From positions 1-20,055 of the IMG/VR virus record IMGVR_UViG_3300046616_000043: a DNA stretch of 20,055 nucleotides. One strand, given 5' to 3'. A program made the position numbers and the translations under genes. Below the pieces are notes generated by a model. It was given only the letters and a program-made list of their open reading frames with translations, did no database searches and was not told where the DNA came from. This document shows, piece by piece, positions 2,048-17,506 of this stretch. Within the stretch, counting starts at the first letter, position 1. Every line of letters begins with the position of its first letter. The stretch is from a virus.

Positions 2048-2284
2048 TTATGAATTATCATCTGCTCGTTTCTTGGCTTCCTCGTAGCCGATCCACGTAT
2101 TGACGCCTCTCCACTCGAGAGCAGTGAGAAGAGCATCACGCTTCAGAAGACGCGTGTAGTCTTCGAACGGAAGAGTGACGTTGTTGAAAGGAGCGTCAAC
2201 TTCCAGCGTCAGTTCGAACGATTCGTCGATCGTAGCGAAGAGAACTTCACCTGGTGCAGGAATGTACGGTTTCTTCTCAGTCAT
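2048..2284 (-). CDS. Unknown phage protein, 78 aa
   Basis: Last gene of the operon running from the glycosyltransferase. Its ATG at 2284 overlaps the end of the GapR gene by 8 bases (ATGACTGA), so the two are translationally coupled. It begins [20 protein letters not shown] and ends [20 protein letters not shown]. The first half looks beta-rich with a helical C-terminal tail. No known motif. Co-expression with GapR hints at a DNA-related role but does not show one. Confidence 0.78.
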
Positions 2285-2537
2285 CGATCGGGTCCTTAGC
2301 GATCATGCCGAGAGCAGCGAGATACGTGTCGAGGATTGCTTCCTCTTCCATGCGCTCCTGCTCGTCCTTCTTGCGGATGTTGATCACCTTCTTCAGGATC
2401 TTGGTATCGAAGCCGTTTCCTTTGGCATCGCCGTATACGTCCTTGATGTCATTGCCGATCGTCTTCTTCTCTTCTTCGAGACGCTCGATACGCTCGATGA
2501 AGCCGCGCAGTTGATCGCGTGTTACACTGTCAGTCAT
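2277..2537 (-). CDS. gapR: GapR-like DNA-binding protein (DUF2312)
   Basis: The 86-residue protein is nearly all helix and follows the GapR/DUF2312 pattern: [17 protein letters not shown] (about residues 9-25), then [20 protein letters not shown] (31-50), then the [14 protein letters not shown] helix and a C-terminal YLAALGM. In Caulobacter GapR is a nucleoid-associated protein that forms tetramers around overtwisted, AT-rich DNA and helps replication and transcription run ahead of positive supercoils. The length equals that of the bacterial family, so it appears complete. The start is set by AAGGAG 7 bases before the ATG at 2537. It overlaps the next gene by 8 bases. The family is essentially alphaproteobacterial, so the gene was probably acquired from such a host; the phage may use it on its own replicating DNA or to compete with host GapR (inference). 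Confidence 0.9.
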
Positions 2538-2549
2538 TCGTATTCTCCT

Positions 2550-3062
2550 TTAGAAAGACCAGAACTTCCTGTCCTGGTATACGGCAGATCCGTAACGATC
2601 ATAGCCGCTGATTATCTCGAGAACTTTCGCTATGATAAGCTTCTTCCCGAGAACGTATTCATGATGCTCTGTGACGACTTTCAGCGTCCAGATGAAGTTT
2701 TCGTTTCCTTTTCGTACTACCTCTTTGGCACCGTTCTTGATGTCTTTGGCAAGAATGCCTACAGCATTGCCAGAGACTGCGTGGATGTAGTACGGAATGT
2801 TCGTCATGAAGACGGCATTCTTCTCATTGCAAAACAGATTGAAAGAGACGAATGCTCCTTCGACATCGATGTTGTGCGTGGAAAGACTGCTGATGAGGAT
2901 CTGACGATCGTATCCGTCGTCGAGAACGTAGACCTGCTGAGGAACAGAAGAAAACGTTTCCTTCACTCTTTGAGTCAACGCGTCGACAACAGGATCTCGA
3001 TTGTCGAGTTCCTCTTTTCTATTCGTCCTAAACTTCTCGATAAGCGATGCAAAGAATTTCAT
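2550..3062 (-). CDS. Unknown phage protein, 170 aa
   Basis: It starts MKFFASLIEKFRTNRKEELD behind AAGGA (6 bases before the ATG at 3062), 9 bases after the glycosyltransferase stop, and ends RYGSAVYQDRKFWSF. A helical N-terminus is followed by alternating beta-like stretches (QVYVLDDGYDRQILISSL; NAVFMTNIPYYIHAVSG; FIWTLKVVTEHHEYVLGKK). No transmembrane segment or catalytic motif is recognised. It lies between the glycosyltransferase and GapR in one operon, so a role on modified or replicating DNA is conceivable but unsupported. Confidence 0.78.
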   Translation of the reverse strand: MKFFASLIEKFRTNRKEELDNRDPVVDALTQRVKETFSSVPQQVYVLDDGYDRQILISSLSTHNIDVEGAFVSFNLFCNEKNAVFMTNIPYYIHAVSGNAVGILAKDIKNGAKEVVRKGNENFIWTLKVVTEHHEYVLGKKLIIAKVLEIISGYDRYGSAVYQDRKFWSF

Positions 3063-3071
3063 GACGGTTCC

Positions 3072-4259
3072 TTAGAAAATGTCTAGCTTTTGTTTCTTGC
3101 TCGTCTGCGGTACAAGAGACATGAACTCGTTGTACCAGGCTTCGTGCGACAGAGCGGTTCGTGCTATGTGAGCTATATCTTCACGTTCAGCCAACGTGTC
3201 GAACGAATGTCGTTTGACATCGTCCTTTATTCGTTCAGCGAGATCTGGAGCATCTATCGGAATGCTGTCAGAAAGGTAGATGTTCGTCTTCTCGAGGATC
3301 CGATTAGCGAACGTCCATGCAGCATTCGGTTCTGTTTCTGATAGACCGATCGTAATCGGAAGAGAACCGAGACACATCATTTCATAGTTGAAGATGCCTA
3401 CCGTCTCGTGCAGGTAGGCCATGATGTGACATCCGGCTCTCCGCATCACGTCGATAGTTTGACCTCGTGTCAGATTGAAATGAGTTTCTGTAGTCTTGGA
3501 CTCTCTGAGCTGATCCCAGATCTTCGGATGATTGCCTGATACGATAGCAGTCATCGGTATGCCTAGCTTGTCGATCTTGTGGATGTTCTTGCCGGTGAAC
3601 TTCGGATCGTATCGTCCAACCATCAGAGGAAGTCCGTCGGAAGGTTTGATCTCCGAAGTCAGGAACTTCTCATCCAGAGGAGCATTGACGAACTGATAGA
3701 CTGACGTGATCGGTTCTTCCAGGAGATGCCAGTACTTGTCGTCCTTTGTCCTTGTCATGAAGTCTTTGGCGAGTTCTCGTTGAAGCTTCTCTGCGAAGTA
3801 GCTGTTGTAGACAGTTCCGCCTCGCTTGATCACCTTCGACAGACCACGTAGACGCATGACTGCGTACATGGCATTCTGATTGACTTCGTGTACGTGATGG
3901 ATCGTAGGAAATTCGAGAGCGAATTCCGAAGACGTACCAGGAGAAGGAATGTGACTCCAGACCAGATCAGGTTCGATCCGATGCAAGCATGACATCACAT
4001 TCTTGTAGTAAGATCTCGTGAGGTTCATTCTCGCCTGTTTCGAGTCGAGTTGTTCCACTGTAGCAGTTACGAGACTGTGAACGTTGACGCTCTTTCTCCA
4101 GTCTTCGTGTGCAAAGCCAGCGCAGATGACGTGGATCTCGTGGCCGTACTTCTGGAGAATAGGAATTGCTTTCACGACGATAGCGTCTAGTCCGTTGGTA
4201 ACCCTGGTCGGGTCAGCCAACGTCGGCGTGAAATGGGAAGTGACGATAGCAATTTTCAT
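3072..4259 (-). CDS. GT-B glycosyltransferase, possibly DNA-modifying, with clamp-binding-like tail
   Basis: A 395-residue protein with the two-domain GT-B layout. The N-terminal Rossmann strand is MKIAIVTSHFTP, with the KYGHEIHVICAG turn at about 38-49. The C-terminal nucleotide-sugar domain begins near 212 (LMVGRYDPKFTGKNI) and carries HETVGIFNYEMMCLGSLPIT at 284-303, the GT4-type E-x7-E/G-x-P-I signature. No signal peptide or membrane segment, so it is cytoplasmic. The last residues are KKQKLDIF, matching the LDIF end of this phage's polymerase. T4 phages use glycosyltransferases to sugar-coat hydroxymethylcytosine; this enzyme could do a similar job on a modified base, though no base-modification enzyme is visible here. 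Capsule or LPS modification is the alternative. The ATG at 4259 follows AAGG by 7 bases. There is no family-type promoter upstream. Confidence 0.85.
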   Translation of the reverse strand: MKIAIVTSHFTPTLADPTRVTNGLDAIVVKAIPILQKYGHEIHVICAGFAHEDWRKSVNVHSLVTATVEQLDSKQARMNLTRSYYKNVMSCLHRIEPDLVWSHIPSPGTSSEFALEFPTIHHVHEVNQNAMYAVMRLRGLSKVIKRGGTVYNSYFAEKLQRELAKDFMTRTKDDKYWHLLEEPITSVYQFVNAPLDEKFLTSEIKPSDGLPLMVGRYDPKFTGKNIHKIDKLGIPMTAIVSGNHPKIWDQLRESKTTETHFNLTRGQTIDVMRRAGCHIMAYLHETVGIFNYEMMCLGSLPITIGLSETEPNAAWTFANRILEKTNIYLSDSIPIDAPDLAERIKDDVKRHSFDTLAEREDIAHIARTALSHEAWYNEFMSLVPQTSKKQKLDIF

Positions 4260-8007: not shown

Positions 8008-8399
8008 AGAGATCTCCAGTCGGTTTCAGGGAAGTAGGTGTCTGCTGGACCGTTGTAGTTGATGTGTGCGATGTAGAAGCGATCTACGTACGGTATCCAG
8101 CGTTCGTAGATCTTAGCACCTCCGATGATGAAGACTTCTTCGTGGCCGAGGGCATCGGCTTGCTCTCGAAGATAAGACGGAGTCTGACCATGGAATGCAC
8201 AGGCTAAAGTCCGTCTAGACTCCTTGAGTTCGATTTTTCCGACGATCGAATCGTAGGTGTGACGACCAGCAAGCATGAAGCTGCCAGTCGTCATCTTCTT
8301 GAACCAACGAAGATCATCGCCGTTTCTCGGCCAAGGGAGCTGTCCGTTCAAACCGAGCTGTCCGTTGTTGCCGATTGCTGCGATGAGATTGATCTTCAC
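8004..8399 (-). CDS. Dihydrofolate reductase, C-terminally short
   Basis: DHFR reduces dihydrofolate with NADPH and regenerates the cofactor used up by the adjacent thymidylate synthase. The family pattern is clear: [20 protein letters not shown] (residues 2-21), the [18 protein letters not shown] catalytic/folate segment with acidic D29, the AGRHTYDSI nucleotide-binding turn, [10 protein letters not shown] and [11 protein letters not shown] start at the GTG at 8399, which overlaps the ThyA stop (GTGA) and places KINLIAAIG at the N-terminus; a longer upstream reading would lie inside thyA. At 131 aa it is shorter than E. coli DHFR (159 aa) and stops right after ETDWRSL, so the final beta-strands are missing. 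The stop overlaps the next gene cleanly by ATGA, so it does not look like a recent frameshift. Confidence 0.87.
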
Positions 8400-9238
8400 T
8401 TGGACACCGGAGCCTTGATGGTAGACATCGGATTGTAGTTGACGAGTTGGAAGTCTTCGTAAGTCAGATCGAACATGCTCTTGTCGGAATTGACGAGCAT
8501 CGTCGGTTGGTCCAGATGCACGCACTGATCGTAACGAGATAGCTGTTCTTTCACAGCATCTTCGTGCGTATCGTAGATGTGCGAGTTACCGAAGGTATGA
8601 ACGAAGTCACCGAGCCCGAGCCCGCATTCACGAGCGATGAGCTGTGTGAGAAGTGCGTACGAAGCAATGTTGAACGGAACGCCGAGGAACCAGTCTGCCG
8701 AACGCTGATACAGCTGACAAGACAGACGCTTCTTCGAGTCGACATGGAATTGGAACATCATGTGACACGGAGGAAGTGCCATGCCATCGACTTCAGCAGG
8801 GTTCCATGCAGTGACGATGTGTCGGCGAGAATGCGGAGACTTCTTGAGGTCATCGATCACTCGACGGATCTGATCGATCGGTTCGTCTACGATTTCGTCT
8901 CTAGAATAACAGACGAGGTTCGTCCAGGACATCCACTGCTTGCCGTAGACAGGACCGAGGTCACCATTCGCATCAGCCCATTCGTCCCAGATCTTGACGT
9001 TATGATCATGGAGATACTTGATGTTCGTATCGCCTTTGAGGAACCACAGGAGTTCGACGATGATCGACTTCAGATGAAGCTTCTTGGTCGAGAGAAGAGG
9101 AAAGCCTTGAGCCAGGTTGAAGCGCATCTGGTGACCGAAGATGGCTTTCGTTCCGCCATTCCGCGGGTTAATGTGATCTCCGTTGAGATAGATTTCGTTC
9201 ATGTGACGAAGATATGAGATGTCGACTTGACTGGTCAT
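8396..9238 (-). CDS. thyA: Thymidylate synthase
   Basis: ThyA methylates dUMP to dTMP using methylene-tetrahydrofolate. The 280-residue protein is full length (E. coli 264) and has all key parts: RTK-like N-terminal region [20 protein letters not shown] (34-53), the catalytic [12 protein letters not shown] with C158, the [20 protein letters not shown] block and [12 protein letters not shown]. The [11 protein letters not shown] segment (137-147) includes the phosphate-binding arginines. The ATG at 9238 overlaps the stop of the HAD gene by ATGA, and DHFR follows by GTGA. The phage thus encodes the whole thymidylate cycle except dUMP supply. T4 has the reverse order (frd before td). Confidence 0.97.
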
Positions 9239-9825
9239 GAAATAGTCCTTTTGCTGTTGAGGAGTCGTTGCTTAACACGGTATGCAATGGTCTTTGTCAC
9301 ACCATATTCCGGATCTGTCTGGCAGTGAAACTTTTTTTGATGATCGAAGAAATCTCCGTCATCGTCGAGAATGCACATCGTAATCGTCTGATCACGGAAG
9401 TACTTGAAGAGAAAGTCTTCGATCTCCAGTCCTCTGTATCCGTGGCTGAATTTCTCTGTTCGACCGATGATCTTCTTGGAGTGTTCGTCGAGAACAGACT
9501 CGAGACATTTCATCAGAAGAGGATCTGTTCGCCATGTTGAAGAGATTACGATTTTGGTATCTGGAACTGCGTCGAGTACGTTCTTCAAAAGACCGACACA
9601 TTTTGGATCGAACGAACCGATGAAGAAATCAGCTCCGTCGCCTTCGGAGAAGTAATCGACAGGATTTTTCCACACCTCATTGTTGAGAACGCCGTCAACA
9701 TCGAGAAACAAGAGTCTCGGTTCGTCGACGATCTTCTCAGCGATGCCATGAGTGAACAGTTCTTCGAGTTGTTCGTACGGCATGATCGTCTCGAGTTGTT
9801 CGAGTGGGATGCGGACGTCTGTCAT
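9235..9825 (-). CDS. HAD-family phosphatase, 196 aa
   Basis: HAD motif I is [12 protein letters not shown] (38-49; nucleophile D42, acid D44). Motif II is IVISSTWR (92-99), and the late acidic motif is [12 protein letters not shown] (151-162). The [15 protein letters not shown] segment before it is typical of the HAD group once described in Swiss-army-knife RNA-repair proteins. The 35-residue N-terminal extension ([20 protein letters not shown]) is unrelated to the fold. A 5'-nucleotidase or polynucleotide 3'-phosphatase role are both possible. The position directly before thyA, with ATGA overlap, favours nucleotide metabolism (inference). Start ATG 9825 overlaps the previous stop by ATGA. 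Confidence 0.87.
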
Positions 9826-11547: not shown

Positions 11548-12807
11548 TCACGCTCCAGTCGGGTTCATGTCATCTTTGTCGAGGCGGATCTTGGAAAGAC
11601 GAGAGTGACGGAACACTCCAGACTCAGTACGTTCCATGAACTTCACTTCACAGATGGAGTTCTCGTATTCGTCCCAGTTGTCCCAGATCTCTTGACGAAG
11701 TTTATCAGTCATACCGGATCCGACTCGGGAGATAGCACCCGTGTAGTCTTGGACGATCAGAGCACCAACTCTTCCGACGTGTTTCGTCTTCGGATTGCCT
11801 TCTTCCTTGCCGATGATTCTCGCTTCGATCGTTTCGAGAGGTTTCACCTTCTGCCATGTGACGTCTCGATCGAAGTTATAGGTTCCATAGGCGGTCTTGA
11901 CGATAACACCTTCGCCGCCTTGAGCTCTGACTCGATGATAGACAGCTTCTGCTTCTTCGATCGAGTTGACAATTTCGTGTTCAGCTATGAGATCGAAGAG
12001 GAAAGGATTGTTCGACCATTGAGACTGGAGATTGTTGTAGCGCATGAGATAAGGAACAGAGTACTTACGAGCGAAGAATGCGTCGTAAGGAATTGCATCG
12101 AAGACTCGGAGAGTGAGTTTGATGTTCGAACCGGATTTGGTTGCTCGAGAGATGCCAGAGGTCTTCTGGAATTTCGCAATGGAGTCTGCTTCGGAATCGA
12201 ATACCCATCCTGGATACTTCGAGAGTTCTTCTTCGATACGAGGATCGATGTTGACGACTGGTTTGCCATTACGAGACAGATAAGTCACGTTACCGTCATA
12301 GTCGACGATTGATACACACCGAATACCATCGAATTTCGTTTGTGCGTAAGAGCCGTGTTTGAAATTGTCAGGATCCCATGTAGCACAGAGCTGAACAGCG
12401 AAGGTCTTGTACGAACCAGGGAAGCATTCGAGGAACGATGCACCTTTGACTCCAGGCTTCCAGTCTTGGAAACCGTCGAAGATGCCGTTGATGATCTTCG
12501 CTTGGAGATCAGTAAGCATCTTTCCGCGACGATTGAGTTCGCGTCCGTTGCCTTGATCGAGGAGAGTGAAGATGATGGACCAGTCTATACCTTCGCCACC
12601 ACCAGCTTCCTTAAGCTTCGAGATGCCGAAGCGAGCGAATGGATCGAGATGCAGAACGTAGCACTTGTAGGTGAATTCGGAAATCTTCGCGAGTTCAACC
12701 TTCTTGGCGTTGGTTCCTTTGGAGTCGGCGATTGCTTGAAGATCACTGTCGATGATATTCGAGACAGTGTTTATTTCGTTTGTATCTTCAGAAAAGATGT
12801 CTAACAC
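11548..12807 (-). CDS. ATP-dependent DNA ligase
   Basis: The enzyme seals nicks in DNA by way of a lysine-AMP intermediate. Nucleotidyltransferase motifs are in order: motif I YAQTKFDGIR (K158), motif III WVFDSEAD (E206, with S in place of the usual G), motif IV GGEGVIVK (297-304) and motif V TWQKVKP (K320, K322). An OB-fold region follows (ARIIGKEEGN onward). At 419 aa it is somewhat shorter than T4 gp30 (487). The start is a GTG at 12807 behind CGGAGG (5 bases). It gives the N-terminus MLDIF, which matches the clamp-binding-like LDIF ends of the polymerase and glycosyltransferase. It leads a long operon behind the promoter at 12838-12873. Confidence 0.94.
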   Translation of the reverse strand: MLDIFSEDTNEINTVSNIIDSDLQAIADSKGTNAKKVELAKISEFTYKCYVLHLDPFARFGISKLKEAGGGEGIDWSIIFTLLDQGNGRELNRRGKMLTDLQAKIINGIFDGFQDWKPGVKGASFLECFPGSYKTFAVQLCATWDPDNFKHGSYAQTKFDGIRCVSIVDYDGNVTYLSRNGKPVVNIDPRIEEELSKYPGWVFDSEADSIAKFQKTSGISRATKSGSNIKLTLRVFDAIPYDAFFARKYSVPYLMRYNNLQSQWSNNPFLFDLIAEHEIVNSIEEAEAVYHRVRAQGGEGVIVKTAYGTYNFDRDVTWQKVKPLETIEARIIGKEEGNPKTKHVGRVGALIVQDYTGAISRVGSGMTDKLRQEIWDNWDEYENSICEVKFMERTESGVFRHSRLSKIRLDKDDMNPTGA

Positions 12808-13876: not shown

Positions 13877-16417
13877 TTAAAAGATGTCGAGTTCTTTAGA
13901 AACGTGTGGATTGATACCGCAGATCGAATAGATCGAGTCGAGCGGCTTGCTGAATGCTTTGAAGAAGTGAGTGTTCCAGTCTACGTAGTCCTTGATCTTC
14001 AAGCGATCGTAGTACTCCGGCCAGGTGTCTTTCCAAGCTACGACGTTCTCGTTCATCAACGGGTTTGGAACTCGAAGAGGAAGCATCTTGATCTTCTCTC
14101 CGTTCTTGATCGGTTCAAGATATGCTTTCGCTTTCTCGTCCTTCGAAATCATTCGATTGTAGACGATTGCTGCTCGAGCATTGATGTGGACACCTTTGCC
14201 GTAGCCTCTGTAAGAGTCTTCGTCTGCTTTCGAGATGATGTCTGAAACCGAAGCATTGGAAGCGATTTCGTCGATCGGAGCTTCTCTGTACTTCGACTCG
14301 ATGTCTGACATGTAATCGATCGACTCTTGCACTTCACCGTTCAAGAATAGTTCGAAGAAGTGCTTCATCTTGTCACGGAAGAAGCCTGGAGTTGACGACT
14401 TCTTCGCAGCAAGACCGACGACCTTGATCTTCGGCTTCTTGTATCGAACGCCTTCCATGTCAGACAGAGCGATCGCATACATCTTCTTCTTGAGGAACAC
14501 TGCTCGTCGTGCTACTGCTTCGCGGTCAGCTTCGAAACGAGATGGATCGAAGACGTTAAGAATTCCAGATCCACGTTCGTTGGCAATCTTCACTACCTTC
14601 TTCATCGGACCGTCTACGTAACCGCAGAGCCACTCGATGCGTTCGTGTTCGTCAGCATCGGAGTTCTCGAATTGCTTCTCGACAATGTTCTGGAAGCTGA
14701 TGTAAGCAGAGTCGGTATCGTTAGCGATGATGTATCGACCGGAGCCATAGTTCTTCGAGAGGACCTTAGTGAACACTTCTGAGAGATTTCGTACCATGAA
14801 CTGACCAGTCATCGTAATCGACTCAGCCATGTCAGGATCGTAGAAGTGGAAGTTCTTTTCAGCGAGAGCACCGTAGAACGAATTCAGAATGGTCTTCTGA
14901 GACTTATCGTAGTTGTCCCAGAGGTTGGCGATCTTCGAGATTGCCTTCTTCTTGATCTCGTCTTGTTCTTCCTGCTCTTCTTTCTGGTACTTGATCTTCA
15001 GTGCTTTGTATTCTTTACGCTTCTTGTAGCCTTCGTCGATGAGTTCAACGAAGAAGCTGACTTTGTCTTTTCGATAGCACTGTCCATTGGCACCCATCGA
15101 CAAGCCTTCAGGAGCTCTGATGTCTCCTTGAAGAAGTCTATCGACCGAAACTCCTGGAACCTTGATGTCCTTCGTATCTGGACCCAAGTTCAGAGCCATC
15201 ATCGTATTCGGATACAGAGAAGCAAAGTCGAACGATCCGACGTATTCATGAAGACCAGGATAATGACATGCAACGAAGCCACCTTCGATCTTCGCGTAAG
15301 TCTTTCTCTCTGGACGGAATTCGAAGTATTGGTTCCGCTTGTCCAAGAAGTCGTAGATCAGGTTCATCCATAGACGAGTGCTGAACACGACATCAGCCAC
15401 GTTGCTCTTCGTCACATTCGCGACGATGAATGCCAGATCGAGAATGCCTCGGACTTCATCGATTTCCTTCAGACGAAGAACGTCGACGATGTTGTATCGA
15501 AGACCGTCAGTAGGATAGTCATGGTACAGAAGATGTCCAGGAATTCCTGTCTCGTGCTGAAGCTTACCGACACCGAGTTCGACGTGAGCAATGTTGTCGA
15601 GAGAATATGACTCTCTCGCTTCATGTGAGAACTTCTTGTAGTACTGCAGATGGTCAACAAGCTGAACGCCAGTGATCTCTGCTGTCGTTACCTCTTCTCC
15701 GAAGTCGTCAGTGAACGTACGAGTGAACACCTCTCCGAACGGAGACAGCTTGCTTGCCCAGGACGAACCTAGCACCTTCGAGATACGATGAACGATGAAC
15801 GGAACGTCGAACCTCTCGGAGTGCCATCCGACGAATACGTCTACACGAAGAACATCAACGAAGATGTGAACGAAGTCTCTGAGCATGTCTGCTTCAGAAT
15901 TGAACATCTTCACTTGGAGGAACGGAAACTCCTCTTCGATCTCTTTTGCTCTGACTGAACATGTCGTCAGTGCGTAACCACGACGATCATCCTTCGGGAT
16001 CATCGTGATCATATTGATCGGTTCTTTTGCAGTAGCTGGATCAGGAAATCCGTCGTGGACCTCTGTTTCGATGTCGTAAAACACAGAACTGAAGAAGTCT
16101 GGCTGTGCATCAGCATAACCAGCTTGACAGATGTACTGAACCGAGTACTTACCGAAGCCCCATAGAGAAGCTGCAGAAGAGTCCAACTCCTTGACGAAGT
16201 TTCGCATCTCTCGGATCGACGACTTCTCGATCAGTTCGAGATTGATGCCACTGTACGAAGAATATCCAGTAGTCTTCTGAGTCGGCAAGAAGATCTTCGG
16301 TGCGAAGTCTCGTGCAACCCAGCTAGCAGTCTTCGTATCGTGATCGTATTCTTTGACGTAGATCTTGGATTTTCGCTCGAGGTAACCTAGAGCTGAGATT
16401 TTTGAATTGTCTTGCAT
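13877..16417 (-). CDS. 43: Family B DNA polymerase, T4 gp43 type
   Basis: Replicative polymerase with 3'-5' proofreading, 846 aa (T4 gp43: 898). Exonuclease motifs: FYDIETEV (D115, E117), HSERFDVPF (D204) and Y308-x3-D312. Polymerase motifs: A, SFDFASLYPN (D397); B, KTILNSFYGA (508-517); C, IIANDTDSAY (D567, D569). Motif C has N566 where T4 and most relatives have glycine. C-terminal blocks (KKMYAIALSDMEGVRYKKPK; KIKVVGLAAKKSSTPG; MLPLRVPNPL) follow T4 gp43 closely. The last residues, KELDIF, align in place with the T4/RB69 C-terminus that binds the sliding clamp. No family-type promoter lies in the 38-base gap upstream, so it is probably transcribed with the zinc-ribbon and Dam genes. Confidence 0.97.
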   Translation of the reverse strand: MQDNSKISALGYLERKSKIYVKEYDHDTKTASWVARDFAPKIFLPTQKTTGYSSYSGINLELIEKSSIREMRNFVKELDSSAASLWGFGKYSVQYICQAGYADAQPDFFSSVFYDIETEVHDGFPDPATAKEPINMITMIPKDDRRGYALTTCSVRAKEIEEEFPFLQVKMFNSEADMLRDFVHIFVDVLRVDVFVGWHSERFDVPFIVHRISKVLGSSWASKLSPFGEVFTRTFTDDFGEEVTTAEITGVQLVDHLQYYKKFSHEARESYSLDNIAHVELGVGKLQHETGIPGHLLYHDYPTDGLRYNIVDVLRLKEIDEVRGILDLAFIVANVTKSNVADVVFSTRLWMNLIYDFLDKRNQYFEFRPERKTYAKIEGGFVACHYPGLHEYVGSFDFASLYPNTMMALNLGPDTKDIKVPGVSVDRLLQGDIRAPEGLSMGANGQCYRKDKVSFFVELIDEGYKKRKEYKALKIKYQKEEQEEQDEIKKKAISKIANLWDNYDKSQKTILNSFYGALAEKNFHFYDPDMAESITMTGQFMVRNLSEVFTKVLSKNYGSGRYIIANDTDSAYISFQNIVEKQFENSDADEHERIEWLCGYVDGPMKKVVKIANERGSGILNVFDPSRFEADREAVARRAVFLKKKMYAIALSDMEGVRYKKPKIKVVGLAAKKSSTPGFFRDKMKHFFELFLNGEVQESIDYMSDIESKYREAPIDEIASNASVSDIISKADEDSYRGYGKGVHINARAAIVYNRMISKDEKAKAYLEPIKNGEKIKMLPLRVPNPLMNENVVAWKDTWPEYYDRLKIKDYVDWNTHFFKAFSKPLDSIYSICGINPHVSKELDIF

Positions 16418-16672: not shown

Positions 16673-17506
16673 TCAAATCTCCAGTTCGAACGAACCTGTG
16701 TCGAACTTTTTGCCGTAGATCAGGATCACGTCTTCCTTCTTCTCGACGTACGTCCCGGTCATTCTGTTAGTCTGGTAGCTGAGAACATGATCAGCTTTGG
16801 TCCATTCAGTGAGACCAGCATTTGGATAATTTTGATGGATGCATCGAATTCCGTTCTTCGCGTGCCATGCAAGGAGTTCGTCCAGCTCTCGCAGCTTTTC
16901 GTACGTCCATGTTCCGTCATATCCTGTCGACTCGATGTACGGAGGATCGCAGTAGATCAGATCGATCTTCTCTCGAACAGCGGAGCTCTTGAGAACGTCG
17001 ATAGCATCAGCATTCAGGATCTCCTCGAACTTGTCTGCGTATGCGAACATCGTCTTCATCCTCTGCTCGATCTCGTACGTGCGACCGTTCAGAAGGAACA
17101 GCTTGAACGGAGTGTTGAACCCATTAGGTCCAAATCTGATCATGGCTGCGTGACAGGAGAACAAGAGATAAATGAATATTAATGCGCGACGACGAGGGTA
17201 CGCACCCTGCTTCCAGAGTTCATTGTATTCACCTCTGAGCTCATAATAGGTGGACTCCAGGCGGTTCTCTTCCGACAACATCGTCTGACAGAACTTGATG
17301 AACTTTGGATCACGTTCCTTGATCATCGTCCAGATTTCAGCTATCTCCCACATCCCGTCGTTCACGATAGCTGACGAAGCGAACGTCCCACTGACGATCC
17401 CAGAACCGATGAATGGCTCTAGGATCCGGATGTTGTCCCTGATGAATGGCCGAAGCTTGCCTAGTTCAGCGCGCTTCGAACCTTGGTACGGAAACGGTGT
17501 TAGCAT
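16673..17506 (-). CDS. dam: DNA adenine methylase (Dam family)
   Basis: An N6-adenine methyltransferase of the D12/Dam class, 277 aa (T4 Dam: 259). It has TPFPYQGSKR (3-12), the AdoMet loop ILEPFIGSGIVSG (28-40), RFGPNGFNTPFKL (124-136) and the catalytic DPPY (187-190). Target recognition cannot be read from the sequence; GATC is the usual target of this class. With no restriction enzyme nearby it probably protects phage DNA from host nucleases or marks replicated DNA. The ATG at 17506 overlaps the previous stop (TGATG). Confidence 0.94.
   Translation of the reverse strand: MLTPFPYQGSKRAELGKLRPFIRDNIRILEPFIGSGIVSGTFASSAIVNDGMWEIAEIWTMIKERDPKFIKFCQTMLSEENRLESTYYELRGEYNELWKQGAYPRRRALIFIYLLFSCHAAMIRFGPNGFNTPFKLFLLNGRTYEIEQRMKTMFAYADKFEEILNADAIDVLKSSAVREKIDLIYCDPPYIESTGYDGTWTYEKLRELDELLAWHAKNGIRCIHQNYPNAGLTEWTKADHVLSYQTNRMTGTYVEKKEDVILIYGKKFDTGSFELEI

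Follow-up and report, generated by a model that had tools for sequence, protein, structure and literature searches.

RL38JI is a generalized transducing phage that has been used in Rhizobium genetics. Glycosylated 5-hydroxycytosine was reportedly described by Lee et al. in 2025. In RL38JI (genome NC_070888), according to a later summary of the original chemistry (PMC7067960, citing Swinton et al., 1985), three distinct modified residues take the place of deoxycytidine, and a later table gives its Cyt as 5HmCyt, variably glycosylated (PMC5977210). The RB69 branch is described as yielding 5-hydroxy-dCMP and as having its sugars attached directly at C5; RB69 DNA was earlier misassigned as hmC, and Mosigvirus cytosine is mono- and di-arabinosylated in phages that have two putative transferases (PMC13390438). 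The proposed DNA arabinosyltransferase of RB69, ORF003c, has 366 residues and a homologue in JS09 (PMC6024577), and the cytosine of the Shewanella phage Thanatos bears an O-linked pentose (PMC12838424). The α-glucosyltransferase (α-GT) of T4 binds the sliding clamp gp45, β-GT does not, and the clamp interaction does not determine α-GT dominance (PMC13216743); the α-GT binding sets a precedent for tethering a DNA glycosyltransferase to the clamp.

The window analysed here, 20,055 nucleotides in length (positions 1 to 20,055 of IMG/VR record IMGVR_UViG_3300046616_000043), represents part of the genome of a Pootjesviridae phage. The glycosyltransferase gene under study (GT1), its motifs and its surroundings were as follows.

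3072–4259, minus strand: GT1, GT-B/GT4-like glycosyltransferase of 395 aa, proposed DNA-cytosine sugar transferase (from profiles, model and orthologues)
3585–3617, minus strand: GRYDxKFxxKN motif of GT1, residues 215–225, proposed donor-phosphate site
3381–3407, minus strand: EX7E motif of GT1 (E285–E293), typical of GT4-type retaining enzymes
3075–3086, minus strand: C-terminal LDIF tail of GT1, disordered in the model, proposed sliding-clamp-binding peptide
2550–3062, minus strand: 170-aa protein, function not known, phrog_32785, 9 bases downstream of GT1, in conserved synteny
2277–2537, minus strand: GapR-like DNA-binding protein (PF10073, 5.6e-34)
2048–2284, minus strand: small protein, annotated in relatives as a host RecBCD nuclease inhibitor
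8396–9238, minus strand: ordinary thymidylate synthase, ThyA (PFN, Asn177 type), not a hydroxymethylase
11548–12807, minus strand: ATP-dependent DNA ligase with N-terminal (V/M)LDIF
13877–16417, minus strand: family B DNA polymerase with C-terminus ELDIF (LDIF codons 13880–13891)
16673–17506, minus strand: DNA adenine methyltransferase (Dam), D12 class

The GT1 ORF had an ATG start, and its length and genomic place were unchanged in relatives. Full-length orthologues were found in 21 phage records, from phages of Rhizobium, Sinorhizobium and Agrobacterium, and every GT1-bearing record that was opened belonged to the Pootjesviridae. The orthologue in RL38J1, gp151, was 80% identical to GT1 of the window. 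A search of 84,980 bacterial and archaeal genomes yielded no confirmed relative, leaving GT1 in phages only, where it was annotated just as glycosyltransferase or hypothetical protein; PHROGs places the family under moron/host takeover.

With membership of the GT4-like class defined by a PF13439/PF00534 match above cut-off, window GT1 matched PF13439 at E = 2.4e-5 with 24.8 bits, below the cut-off of 28.5. The same profile matched 10 of 10 family members (E ≤ 0.1, best 7e-8), a GT4 signal that was weak and consistent. Searches of NCBIfam with GT1, and of PDB sequences with GT1 or its family profile, returned no meaningful match. The AlphaFold model (pLDDT 76, pTM 0.77) matched GT-B proteins in the PDB, GT4-type enzymes coming first (tll1591 and MshA, E ~ 1e-10). 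Both glutamates of EX7E (E285 and E293) were conserved across the family, as was GRYDxKFxxKN, whose proposed role at the donor phosphate is taken from GT4 enzymes. The highest 19-residue hydropathy was 1.15, indicating no membrane segment. GT1 is a soluble GT-B enzyme of GT4-like type, probably retaining. Residues 1–200 were nearer the RHph (Trinifflemingvirus) type, at up to 98%, and residues 200–395 nearer the AF3/RL38J1 (Innesvirus) type, with the switch lying near the GT-B domain boundary.

The order GT1, 170-aa protein, GapR and RecBCD inhibitor was tightly spaced and syntenic in relatives, and GT1 sat in a replication region with polymerase, ligase, ThyA, DHFR and Dam. A preliminary description, made from the sequence alone, had placed a GT-B glycosyltransferase free of membrane signals in an operon with GapR, within a replication region, and had given it a polymerase-like tail. 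The enzyme proved real on its GT4 profiles, GT-B model and EX7E motif, and the hydropathy, the 9-base spacing with its conserved order, the replication genes and the tail, found also on a second glycosyltransferase, bear out the remainder. A ParB-like protein (1548–2000, opposite strand) lies beside the GT1 operon and is kept in several relatives, and a protein of the HAD family, Swiss Army Knife RNA-repair type (9235–9825, PF18143), is encoded directly upstream of thyA. The window itself was mosaic: polymerase and ligase were 90–92% identical to Trinifflemingvirus N34, versus 72–76% to Innesvirus, GapR and its neighbours were nearer Innesvirus, and thyA was 94% identical to that of P10VF.

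GT1 and the DNA polymerase of the window shared an identical LDIF C-terminus, and the RL38J1 ligase began with MLDIF. The motif [LIMV]D[ILMV]F was tested on the 176 ORFs of at least 100 aa in the complete RL38J1 genome, counting it where it formed the very end of the protein; four tails were seen, whereas its frequency within those same proteins predicts 0.074 (P = 1e-6). The only four carriers were the polymerase, the RNase H/exonuclease gp56, GT1 (gp151) and a second glycosyltransferase, gp237 (GT2), and two carriers were left (P about 0.003) without the two motif-defining proteins. LDIF was present in 8/8 core GT1 orthologues, and it appears to be under selection because the codon differences within it were all synonymous. 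The LDLF tail of GT2 was invariant in 6/6 phages, with variable residues in the preceding linker. The GT1 tail was disordered in the model (pLDDT 34), and a gp45-type clamp was encoded by relatives (phrog_223, 2.6e-42). Taken together, these sequence patterns make it likely that the LDIF tail is a clamp tether.

The tail is not required for core function, because it was missing or degenerate in several orthologues: by translation, the GT1 ORF of Atu_ph04 ended in GGVK without LDIF, phiM9 carried VTPLDV in its place, with a homing endonuclease gene overlapping the 3′ end (L006:20001-21801), and the L015 and L016 orthologues had likewise lost or degraded it. The transferases of RB69 and Acj61 were also without the tail. 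Among complete genomes the tail and GT2 co-occurred, GT2 being confined to 17 records of the RL38JI/P10VF/RHph group. Other polymerase-type tails were observed on a phiM9 ORF ending in KLDVF (L006:36968-37603) and on an OLIVR5 exonuclease ending in DLDLF (L019:16303-17214).

Among predicted viral structures, the nearest to GT1 was the phiM9 orthologue, followed by a 369-aa glycosyltransferase of RL2RES, most likely GT2 judging by its length and phage, and then by a protein of 366 aa from Shigella phage SSE1 (Mosigvirus, JS09 species; E = 1e-12). Given the shared length and the JS09 homologue, the SSE1 protein would be of the RB69 ORF003c kind. Sequence similarity between GT1 and RB69 ORF003c was marginal (blastp E = 0.002 over 251 aa, hhalign E = 0.006); GT2 matched the RB69 family at E = 4e-4 and GT1 matched GT2 at 1e-4. 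The T4 α-GT profile PF11440 found no match in GT1 (control T4 AGT, 3e-260), nor did hhalign, and hhalign of T4 β-GT with GT1 gave 0.6% probability over 14 columns. Homology of GT1 to either T4 enzyme was thus ruled out by profile and sequence comparison.

Companion genes were observed in complete relatives, the window record covering 20 kb. No hydroxymethylase was found in the window, where the PFN (Asn177) signature ruled out that role for ThyA. RL38J1 encodes a second ThyA homologue, gp216, in which PYD replaces PFN, an Asn177-to-Asp change like the Asp of T4 gp42. It resembled RB69 p048 (30%, E = 6e-31) far more than T4 gp42 (E = 0.035), and every GT1-bearing phage had a homologue of this type, as did OLIVR5/6, IC12, IG49, LG08 and ORM_20. 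The complete relatives further encode a MazG-like pyrophosphohydrolase, a dCMP deaminase, a dNMP kinase and a UDP-galactopyranose mutase (UGM), the last occurring together with the hydroxylase gene in every Pootjesviridae genome found. The RB69 arabinose-donor genes p050–p055 (isomerase, NTP-transferase) had no tblastn match in RL38J1, which has UGM instead, and an arabinose donor route was ruled out. UGM was also noted in Aeromonas phages (phage 25 and 60AhydR15PP), where it could mark further furanose-modified DNA.

The gene order HM, phrog_3891, thymidylate-kinase-like was common to the relatives, Acj61, AbTZA1 and Thanatos, the third cassette gene of RL38J1 matching weakly (E = 0.0024). 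In every Pootjesviridae genome found, as in other T4-like phages, the phrog_3891 gene adjoins that of the hydroxylase; in RL38J1 it is gp215 (L004:30435-31466). Its product in P10VF was modelled with a GT-B fold (pLDDT 75, pTM 0.58); because UDP-xylose pyrophosphorylase activity has been reported for TH1_063, the Thanatos relative (PMC12838424), a transferase role for phrog_3891 is only putative. The GT-B genes formed a series, with phrog_3891 only in OLIVR5, GT1 in addition in phiM9 and Atu_ph04, and GT2 in addition in the RL38JI group; a count rising to three there would fit the three modified residues of RL38JI.

These results point to cytosine in the DNA of this Rhizobium phage itself as the likely target of GT1, and the preliminary suggestion of sugar-modified DNA is well supported by the modified cytosine of RL38JI and the pathway genes of relatives, the part of GT1 in it being putative. 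The phage UGM suggests UDP-galactofuranose as donor, which on that gene we put just short of an even chance. The relationship of the ThyA homologue indicates that the modified base is probably 5-hydroxycytosine rather than 5-hydroxymethylcytosine, so that, of the hydroxymethylated cytosine raised in the preliminary description, the modified cytosine stood and the hydroxymethyl group probably did not. That description had also judged the enzyme not obviously either of the T4 glucosyltransferases, seen an ordinary ThyA and no hydroxymethylase, and suggested that GT1 could be a new lineage of DNA or host-protein glycosyltransferase. The first was sustained by the searches and by viral folds nearest to GT2 and a Mosigvirus protein, and the second by the PFN signature; of the third, the proposed enzyme assignment alone is new, because modified cytosine in these phages was reported in 1985. 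The checks it proposed gave PDB matches to GT-B proteins led by GT4-type enzymes, a gp216-type ThyA homologue and a MazG-like pyrophosphohydrolase in complete relatives, and no surface-glycan cluster beside GT1 in the relatives opened.

In the proposed pathway, the ThyA-family enzyme encoded elsewhere would, by its relationship to RB69 p048, hydroxylate dCMP to 5-hydroxy-dCMP; MazG-like and kinase enzymes would remove dCTP and raise the modified nucleotide, which the polymerase would incorporate. GT1 would then move a sugar from a UDP-sugar to new DNA, where the acceptor would be the hydroxylated cytosine or a sugar that it bears by then. On the best reading GT1 would be one of two or three DNA glycosyltransferases acting in series; between them the GT-B proteins would attach one to three sugars, with gp215/phrog_3891 perhaps acting before GT1 and GT2. 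The disordered LDIF would dock GT1 on the sliding clamp, as the tail of GT2 would dock GT2, and glycosylation would follow the fork. The fullest form of the proposal is tentative, possible more than probable: Pootjesviridae would convert cytosine to 5-hydroxycytosine bearing one to three galactofuranose residues, through a nested GT-B series in which GT1 and GT2 ride the clamp. If true, it would be a furanosyl-hexose DNA modification built by clamp-tethered glycosyltransferases.

Several other readings were weighed. The bacterial β-clamp consensus is QL[SD]LF, and LD(I/L)F is also similar to it, so the partner of the tail could be the host clamp (DnaN) and not that of the phage, or the tail could be a neutral remnant. 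The same tail on the phage polymerase, the gp45-type clamp of relatives and the exclusively synonymous codon changes argue against both, and we consider this unlikely. A GT1 docked on the clamp might instead glycosylate a protein of the host or the replisome, as the tail and the replication neighbourhood would also allow; we know of no precedent for protein glycosylation by a clamp-docked enzyme, and the cytosine modification of RL38JI together with the pathway gene set makes this most improbable. The normal role of UGM is to supply surface-glycan synthesis with UDP-Galf, and the cytoplasmic GT4 enzymes of that synthesis likewise lack signal peptides. Both points would suit modification of a host surface glycan (LPS/EPS) by GT1 and UGM, in superinfection exclusion or host takeover, as would the PHROGs category and PDB matches that are general GT4 enzymes with many small acceptors. 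However, the relatives opened had no surface-glycan cluster beside GT1, the tail is of polymerase type, the nearest viral folds include the RB69 DNA arabinosyltransferase kind, and the nucleotide-modification gene set is full and accompanied by the RL38JI chemical data, leaving a surface role very unlikely.

The remaining alternative keeps DNA as the target. GT1 would be a T4-like glycosyltransferase of the hydroxymethylcytosine type using host UDP-glucose, and UGM would be unrelated. The table entry of RL38JI as variably glycosylated 5HmCyt (PMC5977210) agrees with this, and several of the top PDB matches use UDP-glucose. It has to contend with a ThyA homologue on the RB69 branch, whose product is described as 5-hydroxy-dCMP, with the hmC misassignment once made for RB69 itself (PMC13390438), and with a UGM kept throughout the group; we consider it somewhat unlikely. 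The preferred reading, transfer of a sugar to hydroxylated cytosine in phage DNA, supplies candidate genes for the RL38JI base modification of 1985, for which no assigned enzymes were found in the literature. GT1 would be a further candidate lineage of DNA sugar transferase, a class with few known members, and an uncommon sugar donor is predicted; glycosylation is proposed to be coupled to replication through the polymerase-like tail, and the nested glycosyltransferase series predicts the sugar number per phage.

Compared with known systems, T4 β-GT is like GT1 in being a phage DNA glycosyltransferase of GT-B fold, and unlike it in sequence and in not binding gp45. T4 α-GT (PF11440) shares these likenesses and adds its gp45 interaction; it differs in having no sequence or profile match to GT1, in being absent among the PDB matches listed and in its tail sequence, and the hydroxylase of T4 is of gp42 type, whereas that of the GT1 phages is of RB69 type. 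The GT4 enzymes MshA and tll1591 share the fold and EX7E, but at 13–15% identity and with small-molecule acceptors. The RB69 ORF003c type (Mosigvirus and Acinetobacter phages) comes closer, with a GT-B fold that is the nearest viral one after the orthologue and GT2, and with genomes that also hold an RB69-type ThyA homologue and phrog_3891; it is set apart by its marginal sequence similarity to GT1, by the UGM in place of an arabinose-donor module in RL38J1 and by the polymerase-type tail of GT1. For the modified DNA of RL38JI, the chemistry, as later papers cite it, was published without genes (Swinton et al., 1985), and the same genome holds gp151, at 80% identity to window GT1, together with GT2, UGM and the RB69-type ThyA homologue.
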